From contig CAJNDS010002758.1 in NCBI GenBank assembly GCA_905221605.1, positions 1 through 64,000 of the forward strand: DNA of 64,000 bases, read 5' to 3'. A program made the position numbers and the translations under genes. Shown one piece after another: positions 8,650 to 34,983 of this stretch. Source of the stretch: Symbiodinium natans. Lineage: Eukaryota > Sar > Dinophyceae > Suessiales > Symbiodiniaceae. Within the stretch, counting starts at the first letter, position 1. The number at the start of each line of letters is the position of its first letter. A model generated the notes under the pieces. The model ran no database searches, was not told the DNA's origin, and saw nothing but the letters and a program-made list of their open reading frames with translations.

Positions 8650-9194
8650 AGACATTCTAGCATTCAAGGTACCTGCAAGGGTTTAGTCCCTAAACCCTAA
8701 ACCCTAAACCCTAAACCCTAAACCCTAACCCTAAACCCTAAACCCTAAACCCTAAAACCCTAAGCCCTAAACCCTAAACCCTAAACCGTCTAAGGCTTAG
8801 GGAAACAACCGCCTGTCTGGTCCATGTCCATGTTGCCCACAGCCAGGGCTGCGGTGAGCAGGAAGAGCGTGAGTTGTCTCTACGCCCCTAAACTTAGAAC
8901 ATTAAAAAACGAAAAAATGTGTGTATATATATATATGTATATATACATATCTCTATATATATATACATATATATATACATAACTAAACTAACATGCAACA
9001 AACAAGAGGCCCATGCCCCAGAATACACAAAGTCAACACCTCATTCTTACGTCGACTCCTGGCTCTTTGACAAATCTCATGCATTGCAACTTTGGTCTTC
9101 GGCTTCTTAGCCAAAGAGGCTTGAATTCAGCAGGCACGCCAACGGCAACCTCGCTGCCAAACTCTTCGAAGCTCGATCCAGGAATTCTAGGGCT
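8650..9194. repeat. CCCTAAA array, TA microsatellite and spacer
   Basis: CCCTAAA units at 8693-8788 with single variants (CCCTAAAACCC, CCCTAAGCCC). A TATATG/TATACA microsatellite occupies about 8915-8985. The remainder is unique sequence without a recognised gene. Confidence 0.8.
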
Positions 9195-9391
9195 CGAAGT
9201 ATGGGCCCTTTTAGGGTTTAGGGTTTAGGGTTTAGGGTTTAGGGTTTAGGGTTTAGGGTTTAGGGTTTAGGGTTTAGGGTTCAGGGTTCAGGGTTCAGGG
9301 TTCAGGGTTCAGGGTTCAGGGTTCAGGGTTTAGGGTTCCCTTGTTATGTAACCCCTATTTAAACTATACGTAACAAAGGGCCCATACTTCG
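9195..9391. mobile_element. Palindromic element interrupted by a telomeric array
   Basis: CGAAGTATGGGCCCTTT at 9195-9211 is the exact reverse complement of 9375-9391. Between them lie TTTAGGG units changing to TTCAGGG units (9211-9337). Right after the array CCCTTGTTATGTA resumes, which pairs with TACGTAACAAAGGG on the right. The left arm is therefore cut by the array, with CCCTT present on both sides of the cut (9206-9210 and 9338-9342). Removing the array and one CCCTT leaves an almost perfect palindrome. Confidence 0.75.
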
Positions 9392-9785
9392 GACCCTTAA
9401 AAACAAGGGTAAGGGACTACGAAGGGTCCATGGTTTACTAAACCCTAAGGCGCAGGGACTTGATCGGATACCTAGCTGTCTAGCAAGAACCAGCAGCGTT
9501 TAGCTGCTCCGCCCATGTATGATTTCGATGGGGACCTTAGCACAAGTTCTTCTGACCCTTCCTTGGGCTTTCACAACCCTACCTCAAACTATACCTGCAC
9601 CGTGCACCTTAAAAACCGTAAACCCCAAGACGCCGAGGTGCTGGCGCTGCCGGAACACTGGAGGGCGAAAGCGCGCAACAGGTGGGTGCCCCAAAAGCTT
9701 TAGGGTGTAGGCTTGAGGGTTGGGGGCCTAGGGTTGAGTTTGGGTCCAGGGCTCCGCACCGGATCCCACCCCCCCCCTACAAAAA
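9392..9785. other. Unique spacer, no gene recognised
   Basis: A plus-strand open segment at 9515-9700 is mixed-composition and gene-like in appearance, but I do not recognise a family. Confidence 0.35.
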
Positions 9786-9986
9786 ACACATAAAATATTT
9801 AATTATTATTTATTTATTGCGTATTTATTTATTTATATTTATATGTATATATCTTTATATCTATATTTATATTTATGTATATGTATTTATTTATTGCGTA
9901 TTTATTTATTTATATTTATATGTATATATCTTTATATCTATATTTATATTTATGTATATGTATGTGTATATATATATATCTGTATA
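9786..9986. repeat. A+T microsatellite with an internal ~75-bp tandem duplication
   Basis: A TATTTATTTATTGCGTATTT block followed by TATATCTTTATATCTA is present twice in succession (about 9815-9888 and 9890-9963), then a TATATA run. Open frames are artefacts. Confidence 0.85.
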
Positions 9987-10540
9987 AAATACATGCGTCC
10001 GGGTTTCGGGTATGGGGTTCAGTTTGGGGTTTGGGTCTGGGGCTGGGGCTGTAGGGATTTATGTCAAAAGCGCTTCGGGGCCCAAGGGTCCCGGTTCCGG
10101 GGCATCGCCTGGCGCAGCATCGCCGGTCCAAGCAAGCCGTGTGTCGCAAGTTACCTGTCCTCCTTTCGACTCCATAAAATATATATATATGTATTTATAT
10201 TTATTTATTTTTTCTATTTATTTATGTACACGTACACGTACACGTACACGTACACGTACATGTACATGTACATGTATATGTATATGTAAATGTATATAGA
10301 CGTATGTATATGTAAAAAAGGCAATATATGTATGTCTATTCATATTATGGTTATGACAATTATGTTTGTATTGCTATTATTATTGCTATTGTTATTATTA
10401 TTATTCTTAGTATTACTCTGATTATTATTTCTCCCATTACTATTAATATTAGTACCTGAGTCGGATTTCGGCGTGATGAAAAGCCCTAGACTTCAGCAAA
10501 GCGCAAGGGCATGTTCACCTGAAGGATTTGAGGCTCCCTG
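9987..10540. repeat. Short unique segment, then TACACG and TTA-rich microsatellites
   Basis: 9987-10180 is unique, open on the plus strand and Gly/Ser/Pro-rich, with no family recognised. 10186-10310 is TATTTA followed by ACACGT and TACATG units. 10340-10455 is ATT-rich. Nothing identified between 10456 and 10540. Confidence 0.7.
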
Positions 10541-11180
10541 GAGGGTTTAGGGTTTAGGGCTAGGGTTTAGGGTTTGGGGTTTGGGGTTTTTGGGTTTAGG
10601 GTTTTGGGGTTTAAGGCTGATGTCTTAGGCTTCAGGGTTCCGGGCTAAGGGCTTGAGGCCCCACCAACATGGACCCTGACTCGCCATCTACAGATATCAC
10701 TGATCCTCAACCCCTAAACCCCAAACCCCAAACCCCAAACCCTAAACCCAAAATGGAGGTTCCGTGGAGCGGCCCAACGCACACGGCTTCTATCCCGATA
10801 AAAAAATTCAATCGCGACCTGATCAGACATCAGGCATATGGCAGCTGGCGAGCCCTCACGGCTTATGGTTGTTTGGGGCTTAGGGTTTAGGGTTTAGGGT
10901 TAAGGGTTTAGGGTTTAGGGTTTAGGGTTTAGGGTTTAGGGTTTAGGGTTTAGGGTTTGGGGCTTGGGGCTTAGGGCTTAGGGTTTAGGAGTCTTGGGCT
11001 TACATTTTCAGGGTTCGATTCTTAGGGTTTAAAGTTTAGGGTGTAGGGTTTAGGGTTCAAGTCTAACTGCACAACCTCCAGCCGGATGCAGAATGCAGAA
11101 TACACACCCAAGGGCCGCCCAAACTATTCGCAGAGTCCAGGCTTACTGATCCGAAACCCTAAACCCTAAACCCTAAACCC
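10541..11180. repeat. Cluster of telomeric arrays with exon-like islands
   Basis: TTTAGGG units at 10541-10620 (impure), 10878-10975 (nearly pure) and 11020-11060; CCCTAAA units at 11154-11180. The islands between them are open on the plus strand (about 10755-10870 and 11070-11153) with mixed, non-repetitive amino-acid composition. Homology is not recognised. Confidence 0.7.
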
Positions 11181-11640: not shown

Positions 11641-11838
11641 ACTATATATATATATATATTCATTTATCTATTTATATATATATATATGTATGTATATATG
11701 TATATATGTATGTATACATGTATATATGTATATATGTATATACGTATATATGTGTATATGTATATATGTATATATGTATATATGTATATACGTATATATG
11801 TGTATATGTATATATGTATATATGTATATATGTATATG
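11641..11838. repeat. TATATG/TATGTA microsatellite
   Basis: Alternating ATGTATAT units, including a duplicated sub-block around the word TACGTATATATGTGTATATG (about 11741 and 11789). Confidence 0.95.
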
Positions 11839-12195
<357 letters not shown>

Positions 12196-13130
12196 GATGT
12201 AGATCCGGCCGGCCAACAGGCAGACTTAACTCGACGCTCCAGGCAGGCACTTTAAAGAAACAGACGATGGCAGCCGCCTTCAGGCTGCCTTAATCCGAAT
12301 CTTCAGGCAAGCAAACCGAAAAGAAGAAGACCATCCATCCAGCTGGCATACTTAACTCGACGCTTCAGGCAAGCACTGAAAAGAAGCAGACGATTGCAGC
12401 CGCCTTCAGGCTGACTTAACCCGAGTCTTCGTGCCAGCGAACCGAATAGAAGAAGACTATCCATCTAGCTGGCAGACTTAACTCGATGCTTCAGGCAAGC
12501 GCTGAAAAGAAGCAGACGATTGCAGCCGCCTTCGGTTGACTTAACCCGAATCTTCATGCCAGCGAACCGAACAGAAGAAGACCATCCATCCAGCCGGCAG
12601 ACCGGCAGACTTAACTCGACGCTCCAGGCAGGTACTGAAAGAAACAGACTGGATCCGAATCTTCACGCCGGCAAACCGAACAGAAGAAGACCGCCCATCC
12701 AGGCGGCCGCAGGCAGACGTAACTCGACGCTCCAGGCAGGCACTGAAAGAAACAGACGATTGCAGCCGCCTTCAGGCTGACTCAATACGAAACTTCACGC
12801 CAGCAAACCGAACAGAAGAAGACCATCCGTCCAGCTGGCAGACTTAACTCGATGCTTCAGGCAAGCACTGAAAAGAAGCAGACGATTGCAGCCGCCTTCA
12901 GGCTGACTTAATCCGAATCTTCACGCCAGCAAACCGAATAGAAGAAGACCACCCATCCAGCTGGCCTACCGGCAGACTTACTTCGACGCTCCAGGCAAGC
13001 GCTCAAAAGACACATACGATTGCAGCCGGTGACTTAATCCGAAGCTTCAGGCAAGCAAACCGAACCATCCAGCCGGCCTACAGGCAGACTTAACACGACG
13101 CTCTAGGCCAGCGCCTACGGACAAGCAAAT
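12196..13130. repeat. ~125-bp tandem repeat, about seven copies
   Basis: Units contain GACTTAACTCGACGCTCCAGG, GCAGACGATTGCAGCCGCC and ACCGAACAGAAGAAGACCAT in fixed order. The ACTCGACGCT-type word recurs near 12228, 12355, 12480, 12611, 12720, 12845 and 12980, so spacing is about 110-135 bp. The array lies about 340 bp beyond the stop codon of the transposase exon and may be part of that element's end, though no terminal inverted repeat was found. Confidence 0.85.
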
Positions 13131-13473
13131 TATCCAGGGGCAACTGCTGCTGCTGCTAAGCACCGAACACACTTGGACACTGCACCGTCAATCTGTTTAA
13201 CACAGTCATTTCAAGGCAATTGTGTTTCTAGATGCTTCGAACGTACGCAATCCAATCCTCAGCTATTGTCCCAGACACACACACACAGTTGCCTGCGTCC
13301 AGACGAAGAGATTTATTGAGCTTGGCCTGGCCGGCATGCAATTCTGTTGCTGGGTCTCCAAACACCTCACGTGACATGTGGTCTATGACACGTGCGGTGC
13401 ATCCATGTGCTGCAGAAAGACGCTCACTCCTTTAATACGCTTTTGGTTCCGTGCTATCAATTCAGTTCAGGGC
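13131..13473. other. 3' flank of the large minus-strand gene
   Basis: Unique sequence with a short GCT run and an ACAC run (13277-13288). I see no polyadenylation or terminator signal I would defend. Confidence 0.4.
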
Positions 13474-14598
13474 TCAAACCACGGGCTTCCTGCCACGCAC
13501 GCCTGCACGGCGCAGGCTGTCTTGCCGAGTCAGGGTGGTGGGCGTGAGGCGCCGCTTCCGACTCTTTTGATCAGAAATTGCGGGCTTCTTGTGAACTGCG
13601 GCTTTGACAATGGCTCGCTCAGCTGCCAACTGCGGCTGTATTCGCAAGTCGGCTTTGCAGGGCGTGTGGCCATCTTTCAGCTCTGCACACCAGTCCTGCC
13701 ATTCTTTTGCCGTCCAGACCTGCATTGAAGCTGTTCGAGCCAGGAGCTCGGCTTCTGCCATCTGTCTGGTGGCGGCTCTGTACAAGGCAGCGTTGTGAGT
13801 CATGAGCTTGCCGAGCCTAAAAATGAAAAGCTTCAGGGAAAGCGTGCTTTTGTGAATTTTTTGTGTTTCCCGGAACCAGTTGTTAATTTCGTGATGGAGT
13901 GCCTCATTCGAGGTTGTCCCCACTGGCAACAAACTCAAACGGCTTTCTGCAATCATATGGCGCATGCGCAAATTATTAAAGTACCACTCGGTACGCTGAC
14001 AAGCCGTGGCCGTGTGCAGGAGTTCATAGATTTTCCTGTTCGGGCCAGGACACATCCGTTCCACGTCTGTACGATACACGGCGACCACGGCTGCCAGACT
14101 GCGAATCCAATCGATCCTTTCCAGAAATGGCTCCTGAGGATTTAAGGCACCCAAAATGTCGTTGGCCTTCCTCAGCGGCATGCTCTTGTCCTCGATTTGA
14201 ACACGCGCTCTTTCTTCTTCGCGGGTCAACGGTCGATGGTTGTTGCCCGTGAAGATCGCTCCCCACGCAGTAGGCCCGCACACTGGGCTTCTAACTGTGA
14301 ACTTCTGCATGATGCTCCGCAGGACTTTGGATAAAGCAGTTCTGCGGCGACTCGACGCGTACTCGCAAGTCATCGGCAGATGCACAGGATCCAATGCAAG
14401 CACTTGCAAATTGGGGCAAATTCGCCGAATGCCTTGCCATAGTTTGGTCGATGGGTTGTCGACACTAAGATAGCGAATTTGTCGCAAAGCTTCAGAGGAC
14501 ATGTGGGACGCCAAGGCCTCGATGACGACATCCGAGTCTTCAGATGATACAGCGCGTAGCAATACCACCGCGTTCGTGCGACCTCTGCACGTGAGCAC
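13474..14598 (-). CDS. Giant mobile-element gene, exon 5: DDE transposase C-terminal part
   Basis: Reads from an acceptor (TTGCAG at 14604-14599) to the stop at 13474. Visible motifs are LSVDNPS and ALDPVHL, each with a candidate catalytic Asp, and TTSNEALHHEIN with a candidate catalytic Glu in the Asn-x-Glu setting seen in MULE/IS256-like transposases. The first Asp of the triad lies in the preceding exon. The C-terminus is Lys/Arg-rich (KSRKRRL), suggesting DNA binding or nuclear import. Known role of such enzymes: cut and join DNA ends of a mobile element. I infer that it is the C-terminal domain of one long protein with exons 1-4, because phase and frame agree across a 128-nt intron. The exact transposase superfamily is not assigned. 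Confidence 0.75.
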   Translation of the reverse strand: MLTCRGRTNAVVLLRAVSSEDSDVVIEALASHMSSEALRQIRYLSVDNPSTKLWQGIRRICPNLQVLALDPVHLPMTCEYASSRRRTALSKVLRSIMQKFTVRSPVCGPTAWGAIFTGNNHRPLTREEERARVQIEDKSMPLRKANDILGALNPQEPFLERIDWIRSLAAVVAVYRTDVERMCPGPNRKIYELLHTATACQRTEWYFNNLRMRHMIAESRLSLLPVGTTSNEALHHEINNWFRETQKIHKSTLSLKLFIFRLGKLMTHNAALYRAATRQMAEAELLARTASMQVWTAKEWQDWCAELKDGHTPCKADLRIQPQLAAERAIVKAAVHKKPAISDQKSRKRRLTPTTLTRQDSLRRAGVRGRKPVV

Positions 14599-14726
14599 CT
14601 GCAAGGGACACCGCAGAGGCCTTTGTACTATTATGTATAGTTTTGTTGCAAATCGATGCGTGTAACGCCTTATGTTTTTTTTTATGATGTGTGCGGTCAA
14701 GAGGCTCGCGTCAACGCGGCTTCGCC

Positions 14727-14999
14727 CTTGAAGACAGCCTGCGCTTTGACTTCACGCGATGCTCGTGGATGAGCCTGCCCCATAATGGGCAAGCAGCATC
14801 GCAGAGTTGCGTCCATGCTCACAACTTCGTATTCCTCGTGAGAGATGAGTTCCTTGGATAATGTATCGAGCAACTGAAGTATCCGAGGACTCTGAAAAAC
14901 GTCCTCGAGCATGGGCCACCAGTGATTTGCATGACGCGGTATCAGGCTGCTCACCTCGCCCGGAAAGTGGGAAACCAGGCGAGCGTGCAACGCGTAGAC
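14727..14999 (-). CDS. Giant mobile-element gene, exon 4: start of the DDE catalytic core
   Basis: A 91-codon exon. The acceptor is CCAG at 15003-15000. The donor region AAG|GGCGAAG begins at 14726 and is ambiguous by one base because G flanks both sides. The segment EYEVVSMDATLRCC provides the first acidic residue of a DDE fold (Asp after SM), followed by a basic PRASRE stretch. The intron to exon 3 is 15101-15000, 102 nt, with GC at the donor and AG at the acceptor, both in phase 0. Ending instead at the in-frame stop downstream would remove the catalytic domain, so splicing is the more economical reading. Confidence 0.65.
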
Positions 15000-15101
15000 C
15001 TGGAAAGATATTGAGTTCCGGAGCTGGTTTTGCTTACGCTATATATGTTGTTTAGTTTTTTTTGCGAATAAACCTCCCGCATGTAAAGCTTTGGTCAGCG
15101 C

Positions 15102-17720
15102 CTTGGCATCGCACAGCAAGAACTCTTTGAAAAGCAATTGAGCGAAGTCATGCGTGTAGTAAAGATTCCGCACGCGACGAACATCATGTTTCTGGACGGT
15201 CGCCAAGGGCCAGTACTGCGGACCGGAAGATGTCAGAACCAAACGTATTTGTTTGTCCAGCACCATCTGGCTCCTCGACACGGAGTCATCCAGATGAGCA
15301 GAGAGTAGAGCTGCGCTGCGGGCAAGGTAGTTGCCTGCTTTCCGGCGCTCACACTGGTCCTGGTCGTGGAGGGCGATGACCACTTTCAATTGTTTTGTGC
15401 CGCTGGCGACAAATTGTTTTGACCTGGTGTGGTGCTTTTGGATGTGAGCTACCACTCGACCAGGTCTGTTCCGCTCCCACGTGCGGGAAGGACAGAACGG
15501 ACAAGCAGAAACCTCCGCCTTTTGGATGACCAAGGCTCTGGAACTGGAATCCTTGCTCAGGAAAGAATTGACTTCTTCTTCCAGAGCATCCAGAAGTCGA
15601 TCCGCGACATGGGTAATGCCCTCGTCTTCCTGATTGTCTTCGTGCTCGGGATTGTCTGAAGAAGAGAAGGGCAGCTCCACGTCCCGAACGAAAGCGTCGG
15701 GAACTTCATCATAGTCGCCACCGGCCGCACCGGCTTGTGTTTCCAGCAGAAGCGTGTACTCATCCTCGTCCGCGTCCAAAGGACTGGATTCCGGCTTGTG
15801 GCCCAAGAAAATGAAGAGGATGTACTTTCGATCCGTGGCCTCTGAGCACATTCTGCTAAAATCTTGCATGGACATAGAAAACCTCTCTGCGCCATCTGTG
15901 ATGCGGACGGATTCGGCTGAAAGAAGTTCTCCCGCGACGCAGTGAGGCCTGCCGCCCGTGGCCAAGTGGATGAAGAATTTTTGTCCGATTGCTAACCTCT
16001 GAGACGGGAACCGTGCGTACAAGTCCAGGTCGAGATGTGCGGAAACCTGTTGGTAGGTGCGGCACTGTCTGCGAAGGAAATATGTGTGGTCGGGGCCTTC
16101 AAGGGTGGAAGCCATACGCATGGCCTTCTCGGGTTCACCCAGATGATGCAGCGCTGCAAGAATGCAGTTCCCAGGTTTCGCAAGCACCTCGGGAAACACT
16201 ACCTCCTCTTTGTTCTCGACGCGGCGCAGCATGGACATGAAGTTCTCGTGCTCCTTCGGCCGGATGCGGACCTTGAAGTCAGTCTCTTTCGAGATCAACA
16301 TCTCACAGTCTCTGCAGAAAGTCTCAGGGTCTGGTAGCACCACGCTCCGATCGATTCTTAAGCCGTCGAAGTGAAGTGAAAGGTGTTTGGAATTCAAAGT
16401 CCTCGCCTTAGCGAGCCAGGCGTCCAACACGACGTCTTCAGCGATGTTCCAGAAATACGTCAGAATGCTGAGGTCTGGGCGTTCTTTGAAGTTCAATACA
16501 GACGCCCACATGATGTCCTTTAAAGCGGTGGCAGCCGCCCAGCGACAGAAAAGGGAGGCTCTCTGCAAATCCTGGACAAAGACGTTCTCGGCAAGTTCCG
16601 CCGGCGGAGCACCGCCGTTGAAAATTTTCTGAAGAAGAGACTTGCCGGTGCTCTTGTCTTTCTGCAGCTTGCTCTGAATCACTTCTGCGCGACGGTTGGC
16701 GCATGCGTCCAGGGTTTGACGAACTCCGGGCCAGGAGTCGTGCTGCGGTTCCAATTTGTCCAAAAGTTGCAGGATGAGACTGAAGCAGGAGTTTTCGATG
16801 TCGAGATCCACGGTGTCCGCCAGCACGGCTGCCTGCCAGGCGGTGCCGAGATGTTGCACAGACCTGGACTCTCCATATCGGCGAGAGCGAACTCCGTCGA
16901 GCTTGTAGTGATATGATGTAGTCTTGCTGACAGAAGGATGACTTTCAGGAAAGGGATTGCCAGAGGAGCCATGGCCACCAGACAATCCTTCGTCAGCAGG
17001 GACTGGGCTCGATGGCTCGGATGGCAATATCCTTTTCTTTCCGCGCTGCCGCCTTAGGGGGCTGACGGATGAAGCCGCAGGAGCGACGCCCTGTGCTTCC
17101 GTGCGTTCTGAAATGCGGCCCTGCAAGAAATCGAGCAGACTCGAAGCGCACTCTTCGTGCTTGGACAGCTTCTCGGCCCGGGATTTCCAGAACAGAATGT
17201 ATTGGTCTTGCGTCAGAGAGTTACGACCCCTCTTCCCTTGCACCTTGCCCAGTACCTTGGTGAAGAAGTGGCGCAGAAGCTCGGCGTTCGCAGCTCGACT
17301 GGGATGCAGCTCCAACGCGTCCCACAGTGCGCGGGCGTTCAAGTGCTCTTCCAGCAACGTGGTCTCTTCGCTGTATTTGTAATCCAAAATGTCTGCCAGC
17401 TGCTTCTTTAAGGGAATGACAGGGATGAAAACGTCTGGGTTGGCCTTCTTCTCCATGGGCAGCAACCATTCCTTCTCGAGAAGATCTTGCCAGATTTTTT
17501 TGTCCAGGCCCAATTTGGAGGTCGCCCATCTTTTCCACCAGGCTGTGGTGTACGAGGTCTTTCGCACGGGCTCCGGCTTACCCGGGCCAAAGCCCAAGGC
17601 GTACTCCACGACAAGCTTGTTGGCCTGACTCAGCGCGTCCTTCGGACAAGCGCTGTTCTCCTCGCTTTCTTGCTGCAAGAGACTACTCAGGGCGGACTGC
17701 TTGCGGTCACTCTCTTCTTC
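15102..17720 (-). CDS. Giant mobile-element gene, exon 3: TV-Pol-like polymerase palm, peptidase-like region and C2H2 finger
   Basis: About 870 codons without interruption. Numbering from the TTG at 17678: RYGE at 267-270, then VDLDIENS at 290-297 as a motif A (Asp-x-x-x-Asn), KSLLQKIFNGG at 346-356 as a motif B (Lys with Asn-Gly), and SLHFDGL at 434-440 as a motif C with the catalytic-type His-x-Asp. This order and wording fit TV-Pol, a primase-polymerase family related to family A polymerases, known from mobile elements and the Sputnik virophage, where it accompanies an SF3 helicase. Residues 502-600 contain GNCILAALHHLG, then RPHCVAG and RITDG, a Cys-His-Asp arrangement as in papain-like peptidases. 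A C2H2 finger follows (C726, C729, H745, H749). An acidic linker occupies about 630-700. The acceptor is AAG|GAAGAAG at 17721. Confidence 0.75.
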
Positions 17721-17846
17721 CTTGGTTCACTGGAAGTTACTTTTCCGACTGCGAAACTTGACAATAACCGATCATGTCAACAGAACACATGTTTGCTAGC
17801 ATAAAAGCACTTATGCTCACCATATCGATCAAGACTCGACTCGAAC

Positions 17847-18796
17847 CTTCAGGCCGCAAGCCTCTCGCATCTTCTTCTCCGTGAGGCCACTCAGCGCCAC
17901 CTCCTCAATAATTCTACGCGAACTCTCCCTGCAATGCTCTGCCTCAAAGCCATGTTGCATTTCCAAAGACGCGGCGATGGCCGGCCCGTTAACCAAAAAA
18001 GTCTTCAGCGAGGCATCTTTCAGGAAAATGCCGTCTGCGTCTGGATCCTTGTACTCCTCGCCGAAGTCGGTGTCATCCACGAAGATAGGCTTTGGAATCC
18101 AGACCAGACACCGTCTGTAAATTGAGTTGAAGTTGGCCTCCATGACGTTCCGGAAAGTCATCACCCGATTGGTTTCGAAGCGCTTGAAGCCGACCACACG
18201 CAGCATGCGAGTCACGAAGCCGTACGGGCGACGACCGGCGAGATCGTCTGCAGACATAAGCTTTTTGAAAAGATCCTGTTGAAAGTGCCTGTGGGTCTCA
18301 GGAGCTTCTTGAGCAGTAATCATCCAGCAGTTTGCAAACTGCTCTAACTGCTTCCGGAGTTCATCTTCGTTATGAAACAGATTTGGATCAATAAAAGCAT
18401 GATTGTGCGCGTATACAGCATCCAGATGACTGCTGAACAAGGACTGCCCCGTGCCGCCAGAAGATTCCCCAATGAAACATCTGTCGATGTTTTCACCACG
18501 CTTGGCCAGCGCAATAGCTGCTAACGTGGCCTTGAAGTAATCTTCGTTGCACCAAAAGGTCTGCCGGATGAATTTATTCAAGCGCGCCCTTGCGTTTTCT
18601 AGCACTGGATCCGGAAGCGAAGAAAGCAGTGGATGAGGGATCCTGACGTATATGTTGTTGTCTGGAGAGGGTTGTACGAGTCGCACGTGCTCATCTGCAG
18701 AAAGGTCGTACAGGAGTGAGACGTCATCAAATGCGCAGCCGGCTGTCCGAGTGGGCGGAGTGTCGCACCATTGCGCAAGGAATTGCAGAAGTCGAC
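17847..18796 (-). CDS. Giant mobile-element gene, exon 2: SF3/D5-type helicase
   Basis: About 317 codons. In the segment starting at the codon at 18686, GESSGGTGQS (residues 73-82) occupies the Walker A position, WMITAQEAPE (121-130) the Walker B position, and FETNRVMTF (170-178) the sensor region with its Asn, followed by NSIYRR, an arginine-rich end typical of superfamily 3 helicases. SF3 enzymes form hexamers that unwind replication forks of small DNA viruses and mobile elements. The usual Walker A Lys is Gln here (GTGQS). Either this branch uses a different residue or ATPase activity is altered. The downstream intron 17846-17721 is 126 nt, GT-AG, phase 0. The upstream intron is probably 18889-18797, 93 nt, with a GC donor. 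The helicase N-terminal linker lies at the end of exon 1, supporting one polypeptide. Confidence 0.75.
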
Positions 18797-18889
18797 CTGC
18801 AATATTGTTTCGGCTGCGTGCTTTGTTTCCTGCAGGACTCCATGACTATTCACAAACCGAAAACTCCTGCTAAATTTAGGACAAGATGC

Positions 18890-21800
18890 GCTCTTCCAGG
18901 AGATCTTTTTGCAGCGGGCCGATGAACTTGCCAAGCATGTCCGCGGTCCACGTGGGCCAGCCGGCTGCGTCGGCCTCACCGCCTTGGCGCCGGCGAGCAG
19001 AGCCGGGACGGCCGGGCAGAGTCATGATCGCCTCGTCCTTGCAGACATTCATGAACTCTTCGTCGCTGTTGTACTCAGCCCGCAATCTGGACATCTCTCG
19101 TAGGACGCCGGAGTCCGAGCGCTGAACGTCCACCGACATGAGTCGAAACATTCCTTCGAGCTTCAACAGAAAGTTCTTCAGCCGGTGAAAGGTGGACTCG
19201 GGTGGGACTCCGTTGAATGCTTCGAAGGCGCCCGAATCATGATACAGATAGCAGACCCCTCGGTGAGCACGCAGGAACCGCTCACCTTCGATGATCCATA
19301 TCAGACCAACGAAATCATGAACGAAAATGTCCGTGTAGCGCGTCCGATACACGGTAATTGCAGCCGCAGCCATGCGAATCATTTCTTCAGACCAGTGCTG
19401 GCGCTCCTGTCGCACAAGCTGCAGAATTCTCTGGGTTTGCTGCTTGATGTTCCCGCTGCCGGACGGGGCCTGCGTCTCTGGCCAGTTTCGAAGAGAAGTC
19501 TGGTAAGCAGATGTCGCCGAATCGAAAAAACTTTGGAACGCTGCCGCTGTGGTCGATGCTCCGGGCTGCAAGCGCCTTCTCTTGGCAGCTGCCATCGCCT
19601 CGGGGGTCAGCGCCGAGGGAATGGCCACCTGAAGCTGTGCGTCTGGGACAGACTCCACGACTTGTCTCTCGTCGTCCTCGGCCTGACGTTCTTCATCTAA
19701 CTCCTGCTGAAGCATCTCCTCAAAGGAATATTGCTGGGAAGGGTCAGGCTCTAGGTTGCTTGCGCCGCCAGTCATTTCCTGCCACGCAGCCCCGCAGCGC
19801 TGCCGATGATGCTGCACCATGGAGAGAACCTCATTCTCAAGGTCCGGCACATCATCTACGAACGGACCCGATTCCGAATTGTCCGGATGCAGGCAAACGA
19901 CGTACATGCCGCTGACAGTGAACCCGTAGTGCCGTTCAATGATGTACTTGTACAAGTTCAATTGAAGGCGATAATGCCAGCCGGCTACATCTGGAATTTC
20001 TTGCAACGGCCGCATCATGTTTCGCCAGGGATTGTTGTATTTGGAACGCAGCTGCTTTGTGCGCTTCCAGTCGAAGAGAACCAAGCTTCCGTCCGACGCC
20101 TGTGCGACAAAGTCGATGCATCCCGCGACACTGTCTTCTTTGGAGAAAATACACCACTCCGTGCGATAAGCCAGCAGATTCCGACTGAATGCAGCAAGGA
20201 ACTTCTGGAAAAGTTGTACTTCGATGCAGTCGCACGACGCGTAACCTCCGTTGAGAAGGACTTCCAGCTGCAAGTGCATCCAAGTCCCGCGATTGGCTGC
20301 TTCCTGACTGTTATTTTGCCACAGCTGCCGGATCTCGTCCGAAGTCATCTCGACCAGGTTCCCGTCTTGCAGTTTGGAATACTCTGCACGCGGCCAGCGT
20401 GAACTACGTTTCATGCTTTGTATGGCCGCCGCAGCATCGAATGGCTGCGAGTAACTGTGCACCAATCCAGTGACGGATGTGGACATGGCCGCGCCGTCGA
20501 CCTTGTAGACATGAGACTGCGCCAGGAAGCTTACACGCAAATCTCTGGAGTGTGGGTTAAACTCCGCCAGGAAAGAAGCCTCCACTAGAGTCCGCGGCAT
20601 TTCCAGAAAATTAGTGGGCACCCTGGTGAGCTTCGGAGCTGCGCATTGAAAAGAAGCAGCGCTTGGAACGCGAATAAAAGAAGTCCCAGCACCATACGTT
20701 GGACAGCAAGCTGGAGAACAGCCTGACTCCCACTGAACATGAAACGAGCTCTCACTCTGGTCCTCAGACGCGTTGCGTGTCTGACGCCTGCGAGTAAAAG
20801 CCGTCGCTCTGCTGCGTGAAAGACGCTGCCACTGAAAAAAGTTCAGACCGTTTCCCAGCTGTAGCTCATGAGCCCCATGATCATCCACTGGGAGAGCGCC
20901 TCCGAACGTTTCTGTCCACGTCGTCTGAACTCTGCTTGCGCCAGAAGGAACATGTTGTTGTCGTCCCCGAGTTTGCTGCTGATGAAACAAAAGCACGTGA
21001 AGTTGCAGCGCGCAGTCCATGGCGATGGATCGCCATGCCTCCGAGTCGTCAACAGTGGCAGGGTGTCGCAGACGCAACAGAGGACTCTGGCGTGAAGTCG
21101 CAAGGTCCTCGGCTTCGGCGTGCAGGAATCGGAACAGCAGCAAATCTTGTTTTTGGTCCAGAAAGTCAAGGATGGCTCGTGCCCGATACATGAGGCGCTC
21201 CCACGTGCGCTTGCTCATGCCTGCTCTGGCCTGTGGGACCGGAATGAGTTGGACGGCTGCGGGCGTTTCCCGCAAGAATTCCTCATGATCTCGAAGAAGT
21301 TTCAAGACGACGTTTTCGAACTTGTCGTCGCCTCCTTCCAGCTTTCCGCCTTTGAGAAAGAAATCAACTGCGTCCCTGTAAGATATTCCTGTCTCTTTGC
21401 GCCGGGAAGAGAAGGATACCCCGCTGCTGCCACCAATGTAATCTGACAATTGCAGCGGGCAGCCCGGACACTGAAAGCTGGGCGATTCGTGGGCATGTCG
21501 AGCACAGATCCAGCTGCAGCATTCGGGACACACTCGCCATCGACCCACCGTGATGGGACGTTCGTCCTCGCAAAGCAAGCACTGAACGTGGGCGCTCGGA
21601 AGAAGAGGTGACGGCAAGGGCCTTAGCTTCAGATCCGGCTGCGTGAGCAGCCGTTTTGGCTGCTTCGCCCAAACGAAAACAATCGACTGCGGGGCGGGTC
21701 CATCCGGCAAGTCCTGGCGGATGCGGGCACAGCCGAGGGTCTGGTGGTTTAATTGCACTGCCAGCCAGCGTTCATTCCACATAAGCATCATTTGGTTCCA

Positions 21801-23974
21801 GCCGTTGGCGCGCAGCTGACTTTGTTGCATAGGCCGATGGTCTGGATCCAGCGCCTGTCCAGTCATGCCAAAGGAGAAACCCATGCGCTCAGTGAAGAGC
21901 TCATGCATTTTCACGAAGCTGCGCCGGTTGCTGTTGAAAGACTTTACGCCCACATAGATTTCACGAACCTCAGCCGAGAGCCAAAGACAAAAACGCGCAG
22001 TGCCGAGTAGGCAATGCGTGGACTCGATGCTGGCGTGCCTGACTCGATCCAGCCTGATCGGCGCCACTTGCCACTCGATAAGCGCCCTGAGAGCAGTGAG
22101 GGCAGGCTGACGCATGCTTGCCAGCTGCGTTTGCGTGCACACGATTGTGCGCGCCAGAGACCACAATGTTTCCATTTGTCGCACAGCAGCGGGTTCCCGC
22201 ATGTCTTCGTCATTGAGAAACAGGTCCTTGTTGCACCACAGCAACGGCTGCAGCACATGCCTTCTCAGTGCTGTGCAACAAGTAGCCAGAGATCTGAGAT
22301 AGTTCAGCGAGAAGAAGTGTTCCGGCAGGCGAAGTACGATTTCTGGCGGCAAGAAGCACGCGTCCGCTCCGCCAATGTAGTCCAGAAGCTGCGCCGGACA
22401 CGTGGGGCAACGTCGAAAAGGACTGTCGGCCACATGTCTGGAGCAGACCCAGTTGTTGCAATCTGGACACACACGCCATCTGTGAATTGCCACTGTGTAT
22501 TCGCGGTCGCAGATGGCGCACACAATCTTGGCGTTCCGCATGACGGGAGACGGCATCGGATTGAACTCCACGTCCTCCGTTGAAGCCGAGAAGAAAAAGG
22601 TAGCCAGAGGCGGCGCGCCAGACACCTCGCCAGGTTGCAACAGCCCTGCTGCCACAAGTACGTCGTCCAGCGTGACGCTGAGGAATCTTTGGCTCCAGCG
22701 AAAGACAACCTGGTGCAACTTGCGCGGGGTAAAGGAATGAGAGCTAGCAGGCTCATACAAGCTCGGCCGTCTGCCGGTGACGCCGAAGTACCATCGTGGA
22801 CGGGCCCCGACAGCGCACACGTTCTTGATTCGAACGAAAGTGTTTCGAAAACCATGCAGCTGTCTGGAGCCCATCTGCAGGCTTGTCACGCCTGGCGGAA
22901 CTTTCAATGAAAATGAGGCCACACCCAGGAGTGGCGAGCTCGAGAAGAATCCTCTGACTGGACCCGGAGGAATGGGATTGCGTGGAGACCACTGTACACG
23001 GACGTTGATCGGAATTGTGAGCAGCTGGGCTAGCTGCGGCACTTCCATTCGCAGCGATGATGCCGATCTGCACAAAACGGTCATCGACCGCAGGTCTTCA
23101 GCACGGTTGAAGTCTGGCCCTGCGAAGTTCAGATCGAGATTCAGCCATCTGCTGGAGCGACGGACGCATCGCAGCATGCCTCGAGAACAAGCAGCAAGAC
23201 GACTCTGATAGGCAGGCGCCAGAAAGTAGTCGGGAAACACGTCCAGGACATCTGCTGGAAGGCTTCCCCCCGAGTAGCGCACGTCCGCGTTGGATTCGAG
23301 ATCTTCAATTCTCACCAATCTGTGTGGAAAAGGGCTCCAGATCCATTCCGCATCTCCCCAATGGAAATACGTGTCCTGCAGCGCCGGCACGTCCTGGTTC
23401 ACCTCCTCCCAAAATCCGGAGCCATCCGACTCAGTTGCTGAGACTTGGCGGTTTATGGCAGGTGCTTCCTGGAATTGTATTTCTGTCCACACTTGCAGAA
23501 GCCGCTGGGCGGAGTCGACCTCGGTTTTGCCTCCCTGGTACTGCCGAAGAGCGGGACCCATCTGTTGGCACGGCAACGCACCATCATCAGGCACCACGGC
23601 AAAGACAGCGTCCAGATTTGCTGGGTTTAATGTAAACCACCCTTCCTGCGACTTCTGCACGGCCCGACCGACTGTGTTGTTGCAGAGGCGGAGATCGAAC
23701 CACGAGTGTGTTCTCATGGACGAATTGGTCTGAAGACGATGCCCGCTGATGCAGCGTGCTGGCATGAAGTGGGAGGAGAACGCCAGGATGTAGTCGCCGG
23801 GAGCGCTGATCATCTCGACAACGCAGGAGGGCCGAATGGTTTTATTAAATGGCCTGAGCCACTCCATGCCATCCTGGATACACCAAGGGCCCTTGCCCGG
23901 ATAGGGCACCTTGTTGCCCAAGGCGCGCAGGGAGTCGACGAGACAGCACTCCTGGTGGAAGTTGTCCCTCCGAC
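18890..23974 (-). CDS. Giant mobile-element gene, exon 1: duplicated F-box/SPRY/RING-like modules and PD-(D/E)XK nuclease
   Basis: About 1,690 codons open. Numbering from the TTG at 23921: module A has an F-box-like start (LPADVLDVFPDYF, 221), a SPRY-like core (FGVTG at 379, SVTLDD at 415) and a zinc site (CAICD to CPTCP, 468-509) ending DYIGG. Module B repeats the same order (LPPEIVLRLPEHF 525, FGMTG 684, CLLCEDE to CPGCP 781-822, again DYIGG). Then comes a PD-(D/E)XK nuclease: E1255, D1270, DWKR with D1284 and K1286, and QLNLYKY at 1320. Residues 1500-1620 look like the helical linker before D5-type helicases. The N-terminal part starts with NFHQECCLVDSLRALG and later HFMPARCISG, again peptidase-like. 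No Met start was found; an upstream exon is expected through the acceptor at 23976-23975. Domain names are by eye; continuity of the frame is certain. Confidence 0.7.
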
Positions 23975-24502
23975 CTGGTCAGCAACGTGCCATTCGATAA
24001 CCGAGCCGACAACAAAGTCAAGACATAAATCGACGAGGAGACAGGTGAACATGACTGAGTCTTTGCTCTGGTTGAACTTGAGATGAAACAGATTAGTGAA
24101 GATGCCTGCGACGTCTTCGATCTTTGAGCTGCAAGTCTTGACCGCGCGGGCTTTCGGCATTGCGCACATCAGATTCCACGCCACGGCTTGCTCCCTGGTG
24201 GACATGACTCGAAAATAACTTCCACCTAATGACTGACGTGAAGAATATATGTTTTCGCACGCAGTCACGGAGCCCGCCTGGACAGGGATGGCCTCGGCCT
24301 CACGAGCTTGATCTTGGGCGGTCCCTTGTTCCTTGCCACGTTCTGGACGTCGGCAGAGATGGTGGCCGTGCTGCGTGCACGAGAGCACATGTTGGCAACG
24401 AGCTTGTCGTCTGCAGCAGAAGGACACACGTGCACACACGGTATCGTGTTTGAGAATCAGCGCTTTGTCTGGTTTCGTGCGCTTTCTACGCAGTCGAGGC
24501 AC
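23975..24502 (-). CDS. Candidate upstream exons of the giant gene
   Basis: Two open minus-strand segments have exon character. About 24230-23980 contains STREQAVAWNLMCAMPKAR and later FTNLFHLKFNQSKDS. About 24405-24255 contains STATISADVQNVARNKG followed by a basic PKIKLVRPRPSLSRR. Frames and phases with exon 1 were not resolved, and either segment could belong to another transcript or be non-coding. No trans-spliced-leader acceptor was identified. Function unknown. Confidence 0.3.
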
Positions 24503-24890
24503 AGGAGGAAGGAGCAGAGATGAGCTTGCCGTTAGCTCCGCGATGGACCAGCTGCTTTCCGAAATGTCGGCAGCCGAGCCCTCGGACTCTCAAAGGCTTA
24601 GCGGTTTAGTTCGTTGGGCTGCGTTTTGTCAGAAAGAGCACGTCTTGTACTTAGACAAGTTGCAGTGCTGCTGATCCTCCATGGACTGCAGACCCAGAAG
24701 CCAAGCCTGCGGGGTGGGACATGACGACGCACCAGCCCAATAACATGTGCACATGGACAGCTTCAGCTTCCACTAGCGCCAGCCCAGGGGCACTCCATTC
24801 GCCGCCTTGGTTGGGCAGGTTAAGCAAGAACATGATACAACACTTATTAAGTGTTTTGCCTTCCTGCACAAACTTGCACGCGGTCGCACA
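24503..24890. other. Spacer upstream of the giant gene
   Basis: A plus-strand ORF ends at 24674 and a minus-strand frame covers 24974-24651. Neither shows a family motif. No promoter element is recognisable; dinoflagellate promoters are poorly defined. Confidence 0.35.
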
Positions 24891-25740
24891 ATGTCGCCGC
24901 CACAGTTGCTCAGCCAGCTCTCGTAGTCCGTGGAGACAGCAAGGCACACGCCGCGAATCCAGGCCTGAGGACATGCATGTAACTGCGCTACGCTTGGCTT
25001 CTTCAACTACGCTCTCGCGCCATGAAAAGCCGAGGCGCCTCCCATTTCTCGCCTTGCATTAGTGAGACTGACTCGTTCCGCGCGAGGGATACATCTAGGC
25101 CACAACCCGAATCCTTTAGACCCAAGCAGCGCTGCTCATTCCTGTGGAGCGAGATCTCAGGCAGGCGGAGGTTGGCCAACCTGAAACTTAGCAAGAGAAG
25201 ATTTGAACGAGTTCCTGGAGATGTGCAAGATCGTAGCATATATCTTGGCGAGCCGCGCAAGCGGCTCGACAGAGCTTTCCGCGATCAGCGGGTTGCCGTT
25301 CTCGCACACCTCCGCGCCGCCGCAGTTGCTCAGCCAGCTCTCGTAGTCCGTGGAGACAGCAAGGCAAACGCTGCGAATCCAGGCCTGAGGACATGTAACT
25401 GTGTTGCGCTTGGCTTCTTCAACTACGCTCTCGCGCAATGAAAAGCCGAGGCGCCTCCCATTTCTCGCCTTGCATTAGTGAGACTGACTCGTTCCGCGCG
25501 AGGGATACATCTAGGCCACAACCCGAATCCTTTAGACCCAAGCAGCGCTGCTCATTCCTGTGGAGCGAGATCTCAGGCAGGCGGAGGTTGGCCAACCTGA
25601 AACTTAGCAAGAGAAGATTTGAACGAGTTCCTGGAGATGTGCAAGATCGTAGCATATATCTTGGCGAGCCGCGGAAGCGGCTCGACAGAGCTTTCCGCGA
25701 TTCCCAGCAGCGGGTTGCCGTTCTCGCACACCTCCGGCGC
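24891..25740 (-). repeat. 420-bp direct tandem duplication carrying exon-like segments
   Basis: The segment beginning CAGTTGCTCAGCCAGC at 24903 returns at 25323 (offset 420, later 416 after a 4-nt indel), and most of 24900-25320 is repeated nearly unchanged through about 25735. On the minus strand each copy contains STDYESWLSNCGG and EVCENGNPL, then IYATILHISRNSF, ending at a CAG|GTTGGCC donor-like site. Copies differ by small in-frame changes and by indels. This resembles a tandem exon duplication in an unidentified minus-strand gene. No known domain is recognised. Confidence 0.6.
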
Positions 25741-25990
25741 GGGCCTCGACTTGATTCGCAGCCCCCAGACTTGACTGTCTCGGCCAAAGGATAAGGACAA
25801 GAAGATTCATCCACATATATTTTTGGGCAGGCAGAGAAGTAAGTGGCTGGCTCTTCTTCCGGCTTTGAGTCGCTCGGGATCTCTTCGGTCTCTTCGGATG
25901 TCCAATTCCTGTATGCGTAAACTCCACAGACACCAAACATTCGAACATCTATCTCGTCCACAAAGCAAGAATTCGCTTTGGTTGGCCATG
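25741..25990 (-). CDS. Unidentified minus-strand exon candidate
   Basis: The minus-strand open segment at about 25961-25760 contains VYAYRNWTSEETEEI and DSKPEEEPATYF, an acidic mixed-composition stretch that precedes the duplicated exon-like segments in the same direction. It could be an exon of the same gene. Function unknown; splice sites not settled. Confidence 0.25.
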
Positions 25991-27571
25991 CTAACTAAGG
26001 CCTACACTTCGTCGGCGCATCCTGGTTGGACCTCTTCTTGGACGTCAGTGGGTTGCGGTTCTTCCTCTTGTTGCCTTTAAGCTCGTCAAGCCGCGGGTAG
26101 TAGCCCAACTCTTTTGGACCCTTACCCAATTTCCAATGATGTGTAGGAGGACCGAACGTATAGCTGCTTCTGGCGCACTTCCGTCTCCGAGTTCGGCCTC
26201 CGAATTTCGGCACGAGGACTAAGCCTCGAGGACCGCTGTCCTGGCGTCGCCGAACATGCGAGAACATGTCGGCAGGCAATGGGGACAACGTAGCCCAGCG
26301 CTGCTCACTCGTCTTGCTTCGGAGCGGACAGAGGCCTTGCACGAGCTGGAGTGTCAGGACAACAGGAAGTCTTTTAGATTCTAAAGGAAACAAGTAGTTC
26401 GCCGACCTTCGACTTCAACCCCCTCACCAGGCAGAACGGAGTCGTGAGTACTGCGTGTCTTGGTCTTGCAGCCTTAGCTCGGGCGAGTTACGCAGTCGAA
26501 TTGGGAGTATACTTTATGTGTGGCAAGAAGCTGAGTTCAATCCATGAGGACTCCTCCTGCATTCGGATTGCAATACCTGCTACCACTCGGTCACCTTGAT
26601 TTTCAGACAAGCTTTGCAATCACCATGCAATGCACTCGTTCCTGTGAAGTAGTGAAGTATCTCTTGTCCATCCACCCAGAAAAAAAACCTCGGCGAGACG
26701 CACCACGTGGCACTGGCGCCGACCGCACACCCGTTGTCGCGGGTATGGCTGACGTCGGCCGAGCCTGGAACAATGACCACAAACCTCCCCTGAAGGCTCT
26801 GACGGCTGTTTCCGGATGAAGAAATTTGACATGCGCTTTTGTCGCACACGCAACGCAAAGCCAACCTGCCACACGAGCGGCACTCCAATCTGACACTGTC
26901 ATCACTGTCATCATTCCGACTCGTACGCAAGGGAATGTCCTTGGACAGCATGATAGTTCCAGACACACATATCCTGATGGTTCCAGACACACATATCCAA
27001 CTAAGTTTAGTTGGCATCATGGAACTTCAAGGTGTGGTCAGCGACAGACGAGAGCCCAATTTTGTCAAGCGGCAACAGAAAGAGCGAAGGCACAAGAATG
27101 CGATTAGTCACTTGCTCAAGCCGAAACTGCAGGAGTTCGCATAACCAGTGAGGCAGCCGCACATGACTTGGTTGCGTGGACATCTCCGACTGCTTTCCCG
27201 ATCAAGCTGGATTGCGCCGCAATTTAACCGCCGTACATGCTGAGAGACTGCTCGGTCACCCACATTTCTAAGTAAGGCGCAGTAAAGAATGTAGCATGAG
27301 CCAAGTGAGTCTAAGTCACGATTCGCGAGACTTGTAGACATATGTCACTATTGCCCGAAACCAAAGAAATCAGAAACAGGCACGGGCGCGCCTGCAGGAT
27401 CAGGTCGATGTGCGCCTGCTAGCCGTCAACTCCCGGGCTGTAAGAGCGATTATTCAAGAACTTATAAATGAAGTCCTCACCCCAAGCACACACGCGATAA
27501 GTGTGAAGTCTTGCCAGGTGAGCTATGCTTGGACGGCTGCTTCCCAAGCGGTTAGCAAGCGCGTAAGTCAA
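25991..27571. other. Unique region without a recognised gene
   Basis: Contains a minus-strand 132-codon ORF (26393-25995), Lys/Arg-rich, and overlapping ORFs at 26544-27020, none with a family signature. A direct repeat GTTCCAGACACACATATCC occurs twice, at 26956 and 26980. Confidence 0.4.
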
Positions 27572-28595
27572 ACAAGTGAGCATAACACAATGCTACGCAG
27601 CACTGGTCAGTGTAAGACAACACAATCTGAATGCTGATACACGGACTTCAGCATAACACACAGTGACGCGCAGTACTGGTCAGTGTAAGACAACACAATG
27701 ACATGCATACTGCCCTTGCTCACCAGTGCATAAAGTAGCTGAACGATAACGCAAGCTGTGCTGACCGGAGTCGACTTAGGCTAAGTCCGATAAGTCGACA
27801 GGCTAAGTCCGATCGCGATAAGTGGACTTAGCAGAAGTCGGGGCAACCCTAAGTCGATTCAGCAGACTGAGCTGGCAGCCGGCAAGAAGCGGCGAGGCCA
27901 TAACAAAGCACCACAGACAGAGCATTCAGATATGCGGACTTCAGCATAACGCAATGCAACGCAGTACTGGTCAGTGTAAGATAACACAATGACACCCATA
28001 CTGCCCTTGCTCACCGGAGTCGACTTAAGCTAAGTCCGATAAGCGGCCTTAGCGTAAGTCGGGACGACCCTAAGTCGCCTCAGCGGACTGAGCTGGCAAC
28101 CGGCAAGAAGCGGTGATACACTTAATTAAGCTCAAAACCAAGCACCCCAGACACAGCGTTCAGATACGCGGACTTCAGCATAACACAATGCAACGCAGTG
28201 CTGGAGAGTCTATGACAGCACAATGACATGCATACTGCCCTAGCTCACCAGTGCAGAAGTAGCTGAACGATAATGCAAGCCGCGCTGACCGGAGTCGACT
28301 TAGGCTAAGTCCGATAAGTGGACTTAGCATAAGTCGGGGCGACCCTAAGTCGATTCAGCAGACTGAGCTGGCAGCCGGCAAGAAGCGGCGATACACTTAG
28401 GCTCATAACCAAGCACCACAGACACAGCATTCAGATACGCGGACTTCAGCATAGCACAATGCAACGCAGTACTGGTCAGTGTAAGACAACACCATGACAT
28501 GCATGCTGCCGTTGCTCACCAGCCCATAAAGTAACTGAACGATAACGCAAGCCGCGTTGACCGAGTCACTTATCCACCCATCACCAAGCCACTTC
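27572..28595. repeat. Hairpin-bearing tandem repeat, copies 1-5
   Basis: The unit begins CGGACTTCAGCATAACACAA, continues GCAGTACTGGTCAGTGTAAG and GCTGAACGATAACGCAAGC, then carries an inverted repeat CGACTTAGGCTAAGTCC / GGACTTAGCATAAGTCG and closes with GAGCTGGCAGCCGGCAAGAAG. Copies start near 27572 (partial), 27643, 27936, 28167 and 28439. Hairpin arms are at 27772-27840, 28021-28061 and 28296-28336. Unit lengths vary from about 230 to 290 bp. Confidence 0.85.
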
Positions 28596-28975
28596 TAACT
28601 GCTATGTAAAGCAGTGGTCGACAATTGCTCAACTGGTTCTCCCCAAAACCATTGGCCATCCCAGAAAGCGGTCCATGCGTGTGCTCACCGCTGCTTGAAA
28701 GGCTTACTCGAGGTCACGTGCCCACAGGCCAGCGTTTAAGTTGAAACTCAAGACAGCCCTCATGCCACTGTTTGACTGGTCCTCCCGAGGTCGCGCGTCC
28801 CCGAGGCTACTTCACACAAGGCGGGTTGACTTAACGCACCACGCCTCCAGCAATCTTCTTGTCCGGCAGCGCAGCCTGGCACAGACTTGACATAGCTACA
28901 GTCAACTCAGTCGAAGATTTGCTAGTGACTGCCTGCGCAGGTATGTGGTTTTAACCCCAAGCAGCGGCTTCTGGG
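28596..28975. other. Spacer downstream of the compact ORF
   Basis: Unique sequence; two similar AGGTC(A/G)CG-containing phrases near 28711 and 28789. No gene recognised. Confidence 0.4.
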
Positions 28976-29575
28976 TCACTTCTTCGCGAGCGGCGCCCAT
29001 TGGCAGGGACCGTCCTTGGGACGGTGTGCCTTTGTGGCACTTGGAAAACCACGCCGTAGCTGCTCGCAGGCGTCGCAGTACCGTGGGTCGCTTTGAGCGA
29101 AGCCCGGGTAAAGCACTCCTTGGGAGTTAGGCTTCCCGCGGTGGTTGGGGGCCGGCGCGCCTGGAGGCAAACGGGGCCGTTGTTCACGACCCACTGCCTT
29201 GGGGGGCTTCTTGCCTTCCTTCTCCTTCATATTCTTGACCTCCTGACCAGTAGCGCCATCGGTCTTCTTCGAAGGAGCCGCTTTGGCTTTGGTAGCAGGT
29301 GTCTCGCTGGGTGCTTCAGCCTTGTCAGAGGAGGACGACTCTGAGTCCGAAGTTGCGAACAGACTTGAACCAGAGTCGAACTCCTGTGACAGGGTTTCAT
29401 GGGCTCCCAGTATTTCCTCCTCCAATTTCGTAATCTTGGCTCGCAACTGTGCCATGATAGCCTTTTTTGCCACCACCATTTCGCGAAGATCACCCTTCCG
29501 CTTCAAATATTCTGCGCGCAGAACTCGAAGGGACCTCCGCTGAGCAGGTACAGATGTAGCCGGACCGCGGGGCAT
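28976..29575 (-). CDS. Compact coiled-coil ORF embedded in the tandem repeat
   Basis: A 199-codon intronless ORF starting at a true ATG (29575). Residues 15-65 are Arg/Lys/Leu/Glu-rich with heptad-like spacing (MAQLRAKITKLEEEI), suggesting a short coiled coil. About 68-86 is a Ser/Asp/Glu run, about 87-125 is Ala/Lys/Pro-rich, and the C-terminus holds YCDACEQLRRGF and later DGPCQWA, a possible zinc-binding Cys set (CxxC plus one Cys). It lies between copies 5 and 6 of the hairpin-bearing repeat, so it may be the protein of that repeat's parent element (gag-like or accessory) or an independent gene. I do not recognise the family. Confidence 0.5.
   Translation of the reverse strand: MPRGPATSVPAQRRSLRVLRAEYLKRKGDLREMVVAKKAIMAQLRAKITKLEEEILGAHETLSQEFDSGSSLFATSDSESSSSDKAEAPSETPATKAKAAPSKKTDGATGQEVKNMKEKEGKKPPKAVGREQRPRLPPGAPAPNHRGKPNSQGVLYPGFAQSDPRYCDACEQLRRGFPSATKAHRPKDGPCQWAPLAKK

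Positions 29576-34951: not shown

Positions 34952-34983
<32 letters not shown>

Follow-up and report, generated by a model that had tools for sequence, protein, structure and literature searches.

A large dinoflagellate DNA transposon family that probably carries a giant replication-and-integration gene

A stretch of 64,000 nucleotides from the dinoflagellate Symbiodinium natans (contig CAJNDS010002758.1, positions 1 to 64,000; hereafter the window) contains a giant minus-strand gene whose predicted product combines, in this order, F-box-like/zinc modules, an exonuclease, a superfamily 3 (SF3)-like helicase, a family A polymerase, a papain-like domain, a zinc finger and a DDE transposase of IS256/Mutator-like element (MULE)-like type (Table 1). 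Judging from its copies, the element that carries this gene is mobile: it is dispersed, recently multiplied and bounded by inverted repeats. It is best interpreted, with a probability of roughly 0.7, as a large family of dinoflagellate DNA transposons with terminal inverted repeats that carries a giant replication-and-integration gene. The fusion of nuclease, helicase, polymerase and transposase had been proposed from the window alone (the original prediction); the two F-box-like/zinc modules, the papain-like domain, the C2H2-like finger and a glutamine in the Walker A motif of the helicase are features beyond that proposal.

The five minus-strand segments do join in frame as proposed, since removal of the four introns yields 9,999 nt (5,032 + 950 + 2,619 + 273 + 1,125), or 3,332 codons plus a stop, with no internal stop. 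The exon 1 segment alone stays open for 1,700 codons, while no open frame exceeded 460 codons in 200 first-order Markov simulations of the 10.5-kb stretch (the maxima averaging 229), which puts the observed length far beyond chance. GC content is 0.41-0.48 in the introns versus 0.63 at coding third positions. Introns 1-3 have GC-AG, GT-AG and GC-AG borders and agree with the proteins of relatives, some of which may be spliced by prediction; residues flanking the site are contiguous in P0015 for intron 1 (LLEERRLLQ) and in P0007 and P0023 for intron 3 (AKVYALHAR). Intron 4, as proposed at 14726-14599, begins with GG. Because the exon-4 end GE(S/M)ALTR is kept in relatives P0019, P0023 and P0007 (GEAALTR in the window), the donor was moved to 14705, which adds 21 nt to exon 4 in frame. 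The proposed start at 23921 had to be abandoned, as this TTG is a product of bacterial start-codon rules and is not credible. An upstream exon with the true start is likely because the frame remains open to 23978, the first methionine after 23921 comes at codon 19 and the gene model of P0017 has 153 residues ahead of the alignable part; no such exon was found for the window copy.

Other loci and related proteins bear on the unity of the gene. Among 20 loci, the window copy included, six (L010-L012, L015-L017) hold nuclease, helicase and polymerase motifs in one intronless frame, and these six form two groups, or subfamilies, of near-identical copies. The abundant subfamily (contig C391) keeps the same order, with an F-box-like module in a frame of 540 amino acids (aa), the region from nuclease to finger in one of 1,731 aa, and the DDE part in a separate frame of 478 aa just downstream, after a short gap at the position of intron 3. 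In P0015 (1,979 aa), F-box-like modules and nuclease are joined to a primase-like part and a helicase. P0013 (1,337 aa) runs from the end of the nuclease through helicase and polymerase to the papain-like domain. Three further proteins, which may be spliced predictions, link the polymerase by way of papain-like domain and finger to the DDE part: P0020 of Symbiodinium microadriaticum, P0021 of Symbiodinium CCMP2592 and P0027 of Prorocentrum cordatum. P0017 (N-terminal part) and P0023 (C-terminal part) of CCMP2592 both lie on contigs of 479,751 bases and are probably one element split by gene prediction. Overlapping pieces in the same order therefore occur in S. natans and in all three of these other dinoflagellates, and we infer that one polypeptide would be made from the gene.

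Alternatively, separate adjacent genes or decayed pieces could have been joined by chance gaps, in line with the S. natans gene model P0001 (97% identical over 94% of exon 3), which skips most of the helicase exon. This is hardly credible given 9,999 nt without a stop, the same order across several species and the intronless frames elsewhere in the genome, which rule out separate genes for nuclease, helicase and polymerase and so already largely refute the artefact for these three. The DDE part of the public model P0001 is also truncated, and such a model may explain why the element was not recognised.

The reading as a transposon family is carried by its copies and their ends. A helicase query against the S. 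natans genome (759 Mb, 2,543 contigs) gave 134 matching stretches from 256 candidates, 119 of them scored, with some loci counted repeatedly. Eighteen matches score 313.2-314.2 bits, and five of their contigs were compared: C391 is 99.76-99.92% identical to C331, C1680, C2389 and C184 in single alignments of 8.3-9.8 kb, and C331 tracks it piecewise across about 17.6 kb. On the 3' side the similarity among C391, C331, C2389, C1680 and C2333 breaks off at one common base, behind a TA run 12-16 nt long, where unrelated flanks begin; on the 5' side C184, C2333 and C264 share a terminal sequence, beyond which lie a TA run, again of 12-16 nt, and flanks that are unrelated. This makes eight ends of the abundant subfamily that abut TA runs (five at 3', three at 5'), and both ends are seen in C2333, 27.5 kb apart. 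The two ends form inverted repeats equal at 26 of 34 positions in a register set by eye, which none of 200,000 shuffles reaches, and at 21/29 without the first five TA-rich positions. With such repeats and dispersed copies the element answers to a DNA transposon with terminal inverted repeats, and the genome-wide copies and conserved termini that the original prediction had suggested looking for were both found.

Terminal repeats were recognised only by comparing copies, because the window alone gave no convincing pair. The terminal core of the window copy has one mismatch to that of the abundant subfamily (the next best window matches have four), and its terminal repeat is equal to the 3' end of that subfamily at 25/34 positions and to the reversed 5' end at 26/34. 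A sister copy on contig C332 is 99.4-99.8% identical to the window from 12,528 to 29,984, and a terminal motif at C332:77,164 that faces inward, toward the gene, is the probable 5' end of this copy, whose length would be about 21 kb or more. Another motif of that orientation, at C332:113,254, shows that there are other elements close by.

Same-strand helicase pairs lie 14-23 kb apart on C391 (122455/145263), C1850 (232939/247306), C1862 (199311/217191), C2212 (481651/499580), C385 (122540/145272) and C1856 (269797/288372). They could be head-to-tail tandem elements, which would fit replication products, or an assembly effect, and they give only a hint of replication because in another pair (C391 548509/564985) the two members are separated by a run of N. 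At their 5' ends, copies of the abundant subfamily (C184, C2333, C264) carry long tandem repeats of 87/174, 39 and about 340 bp of variable length, the last rich in ATTTAAAT, and upstream of the gene the window has a 416-bp unit twice in tandem (24895-25736, 95% matching). On the 5' side of the gene, lysine/alanine-rich open reading frames (ORFs) lie at comparable positions in the window copy (28976-29611, minus strand) and in the abundant subfamily (L031:5980-6681, minus strand); no Pfam family scored above the cut-off in them, and they are possibly an upstream exon or a second gene.

All four proposed enzyme classes found support, the nuclease by profile, the polymerase and the DDE part by fold, and the helicase by motifs and weak family matches. 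Profile searches of the exons returned phrog_298 for the nuclease, which we take to be of PD-(D/E)XK type, and weak rows for the helicase (VapE-like_dom in 1/8 rows, E 3.2e-4; DUF5906 in 1/8, E 0.092; Phage_rep_O in 1/8, E 0.062); Pfam gave for the five exon pieces a single row, DUF6462, below cut-off (E 0.023). The fold search placed the polymerase among superfamily A polymerases, with 14 BFVD matches at E <= 0.001 that include virophages, giant viruses and phages (Zamilon virophage 8e-9, Qinghai Lake virophage 1.3e-5) and indicate likeness of fold only. Its palm aspartates D307 and D309 are present in 12/12 alignment rows with letters and D454 in 13/13. R282, in 12/12 rows with letters, lies within a predicted hairpin and may correspond to the hairpin arginine of TV-Pols. 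The DDE part appears IS256/MULE-like in its modelled fold, an RNase H fold with a helical insertion ahead of the glutamate; the first aspartate is kept in 11/13 rows with letters, the second in 15/15 and the glutamate in 12/12. All three are present in the window, and the enzyme is presumably active. For the helicase, pN (nonsynonymous divergence) is 0.14-0.39 versus a saturated pS (synonymous divergence) of 0.74-0.93 in 21 pairs between subfamilies, from which this domain is judged to be under purifying selection between them; synonymous sites are nearly unchanged within subfamilies, so that no usable ratio of the two (dN/dS) results.

Several observations weigh against this interpretation. 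A single frame is missing in 14 of the 20 loci, among them the window copy (L003) and its sister (L002), where the frame changes or ends between motifs, a motif is unmatched or a motif lies outside the piece. Pfam recognises no polymerase or transposase family on the pieces of the element and no family in the helicase piece of the window, and hhalign of the helicase against P4 alpha gave a probability of 0.5 of 100 with only the Walker A aligned. In place of GxxxxGK[ST], the Walker A motif has glutamine for lysine in 18/18 matched loci (of 20), and QEAPE stands at the expected position of the Walker B aspartate; on both grounds ATPase activity of the helicase is uncertain. The glutamine recurs in relatives P0013 and P0015 (and in an alignment of eight rows, one duplicating another) even though synonymous sites between subfamilies are saturated, and we read it as a kept feature rather than decay. 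Most polymerase rows lack RxxxK in the fingers, as K362 is found in 13/13 rows and the arginine four positions earlier in 2/13 (P0006, P0012), with lysine in the window; the predicted polymerase thus fits TV-Pol in fold and palm residues, not in this motif. The 3' end is seen in five of eight stretches, and the three others, placed by extrapolation, show no end. No 5' end could be located for the window copy, where runs of N mask it, the C2080 5' stretch gave no alignment, and other 5' stretches are interrupted by runs of N. Target duplications of IS256 and MULE transposons measure about 8-11 bp, and those whose search the original prediction had proposed are not distinguishable here, the ends sitting inside TA runs of 12-16 nt.

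Alternatively, the element could be a cut-and-paste IS256/MULE-like transposon with a captured, virus-derived replication cassette, in which polymerase and helicase serve donor-site repair or virus suppression and the element does not replicate itself. The DDE enzyme alone would suffice for movement, and the consistent replacement of the Walker A lysine in the matched loci would also fit; this explanation is nevertheless regarded as unlikely, as the order of the replication module is kept in the abundant subfamily, the helicase appears to be under purifying selection between subfamilies, and the part from polymerase to DDE is kept in Prorocentrum (P0027).

Like TV-Pol and PolA-S3H of Sputnik-type virophages and polinton-like viruses, the element joins a family A polymerase to an SF3/D5-like helicase. 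A fusion of PolA-S3H type has been described in polinton-like viruses (PMC4642659), and PolA-S3H is described as lacking an exonuclease domain (PMC11071308). Sputnik V13 has its helicase C-terminal to the polymerase with which it is fused, and the same 2008 paper states that TV-Pols are never fused to nuclease domains (PMC2579912); here, unlike in V13, the helicase precedes the polymerase, with a nuclease fused ahead of both and a DDE transposase following. An endogenous DNA virus of virophage or polinton-like type, or a capsid-less derivative whose virion genes are lost or unrecognised, would account for virophage and giant-virus proteins as the best named structural matches of the polymerase, and such viruses are integrated in dinoflagellates (PMC10120064). 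We nonetheless consider it quite improbable, since the order of helicase and polymerase is reversed, the integrating enzyme is IS256/MULE-like, and profile scans of the five exon pieces and seven further ORFs, a subset of the ORFs of the element, recognised neither a capsid or packaging ATPase nor a PolB or RVE integrase. Searches of viral contigs gave 22 pattern matches to the polymerase alignment, none of them confirmed, and nothing for the helicase patterns; tblastn of the helicase against phages also found nothing.

The transposon interpretation can likewise be set against other mobile elements. Like Polinton/Maverick, the element combines a polymerase of its own with a cysteine protease and an integrating enzyme of DDE fold, and it differs in that the polymerase is of family A and the DDE enzyme IS256/MULE-like; polintons carry a protein-primed PolB, an RVE integrase, an Ulp1 protease and capsid genes (PMC11071308). 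OmPLV of Oxyrrhis marina (PMC12721341) is another mobile element of a dinoflagellate with a large fusion in which the helicase precedes the polymerase; it is a polinton-like virus with a capsid protein, and its fusion comprises a superfamily 1 helicase and PolB in about 1,500 aa, in contrast to the SF3-like helicase with family A polymerase found here. Bacterial mobile elements link TV-Pol to transposases, resolvases and integrases (PMC2579912), as separate genes and with IS630-/IS605-type transposases or site-specific recombinases. Unlike IS256/MULE transposons, the DDE part has no Pfam match and is joined to a replication module in an element of more than 20 kb. The main text of a Mutator review (PMC6446971) contains no mention of dinoflagell, alveolat, polymerase, helicase or microsatellite, and the open-access literature, with subscription papers and Repbase outside the search, yielded no description of such an element. 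It thus belongs to no described family that was found and would work like a self-synthesising DNA transposon.

A mechanism can be proposed on the basis of domain content. The DDE part would cut or join at the inverted repeats and insert into TA runs, while copying of the element would fall to helicase and polymerase and take place on an excised molecule or at a strand-transfer intermediate. The nuclease could trim ends, the papain-like domain could cleave the polyprotein into working enzymes, and the F-box-like modules might recruit the host ubiquitin machinery against host restraint. Replicative transposition, or self-replication of the element, would follow from such a scheme. More boldly, and with odds only slightly better than even, the element may represent a new superfamily of self-replicating eukaryotic DNA transposon: a polyprotein of more than 3,300 residues with a host-directed F-box-like module, an exonuclease, a helicase with glutamine-type Walker A and a family A polymerase in reverse virophage order, an internal protease and a Mutator/IS256-like transposase, moving by replicative transposition into TA microsatellites and forming a PolA-built lineage parallel to the PolB polintons.

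The remaining features are collected in Table 1. The F-box-like repeat was missed by self-BLAST and found on direct comparison of the two units; Pfam gave no F-box-like match in the window's own protein. Another pointer to the ubiquitin system is P0012, a relative in the polymerase and papain-like part, for which a ubiquitin family domain (PF00240) is precomputed. The segment ahead of the helicase gave no D5_N profile match. The extent of the papain-like domain was assigned from motifs and the pattern of strands and helices; an OTU deubiquitinase was considered for it, and the fold search favoured C39/C58-type papain-like folds with weak E-values. Sequence searches of PDB gave nothing or chance matches (E 0.8 or more), and scans of the window with Rfam (gathering thresholds) and for tRNAs gave none. 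Elsewhere in the window, 30328-32678 is taken up by GC-rich tandem repeats nested in one another (with units of 41, 195, 275 and 470 bp, besides others) and open in more than one frame, and telomere-like arrays of TTTAGGG type, numerous, short and interspersed, occur in either orientation, among the matches listed, at 4585-5660, 8688-11180 and 33110-43336.

Table 1. Positions of the gene, its predicted domains and the element's 3' end in the window.
Feature	Position	Strand	Remarks
TATATGTA-type microsatellite array	11643..11837	.	adjoins element 3' end; probable target
3' terminal inverted repeat, window copy	11838..11872	+	core ACCTTTAGGGTCTATTTGG, 11847-11865
Subterminal tandem repeats, ~126 bp	12203..13115	.	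between stop codon and 3' end
Exon 5	13474..14598	-	DDE transposase, second half: second Asp 14460-14458, DPVH 14391-14380, Glu 13905-13903
Intron 4, corrected	14599..14705	-	GC-AG, 107 nt
Exon 4	14706..14999	-	DDE transposase start, first Asp 14813-14811
Intron 3	15000..15101	-	GC-AG; junction also interrupted in abundant subfamily
Exon 3	15102..17720	-	family A (TV-Pol-like) polymerase, papain-like domain, C2H2-like finger
C2H2-like zinc finger, CPFC...H...H	15429..15503	-	motif; zf-C2H2_4 in P0010, E 0.081, below cut-off
Papain-like (C39/C58-like) domain, GNC ... PHC	15792..16214	-	fold search E 0.01-0.05, probability 0.92-1.00
Polymerase domain	16245..17396	-	DLDIENS 16808-16788, GK...NGG 16646-16611, SLHFDG 16379-16362
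Intron 2	17721..17846	-	GT-AG
Exon 2	17847..18796	-	SF3-like helicase
Helicase motifs	exon 2	-	Walker A-like GESSGGTGQS 18470-18441, QEAPE 18311-18297, B'-like 18254-18219
Intron 1	18797..18889	-	GC-AG
Exon 1	18890..23978	-	open frame; 5' border provisional
D5_N-like segment ahead of helicase	19194..19388	-	suggested by position and GVPPE motif
Exonuclease domain, presumed PD-(D/E)XK type	19863..20549	-	GCIDF ... FDWKR ... Q...Y; phrog_298 profile match, E 2.1e-20
Second F-box-like/zinc module	21423..22358	-	F-box-like match in relative P0015, E 8.5e-6
First F-box-like/zinc module	22359..23276	-	28% identical to second module
N-terminal Cys...HF segment	23751..23948	-	possibly second peptidase-like domain; by eye

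Self-encoded replication machinery is rare among transposons, and its best-known eukaryotic carriers, the polintons, turned out to be viruses. If the interpretation given here is correct, the element would be a second eukaryotic solution, in which a single gene unites a virophage-type family A polymerase with a cut-and-join transposase. It would then become possible to test in a living host the link that has been proposed between virophages and TV-Pol mobile elements, with a replicase and a transposase available for joint expression and testing. Such elements could also help to explain the growth of repeats in the genomes of coral symbionts.

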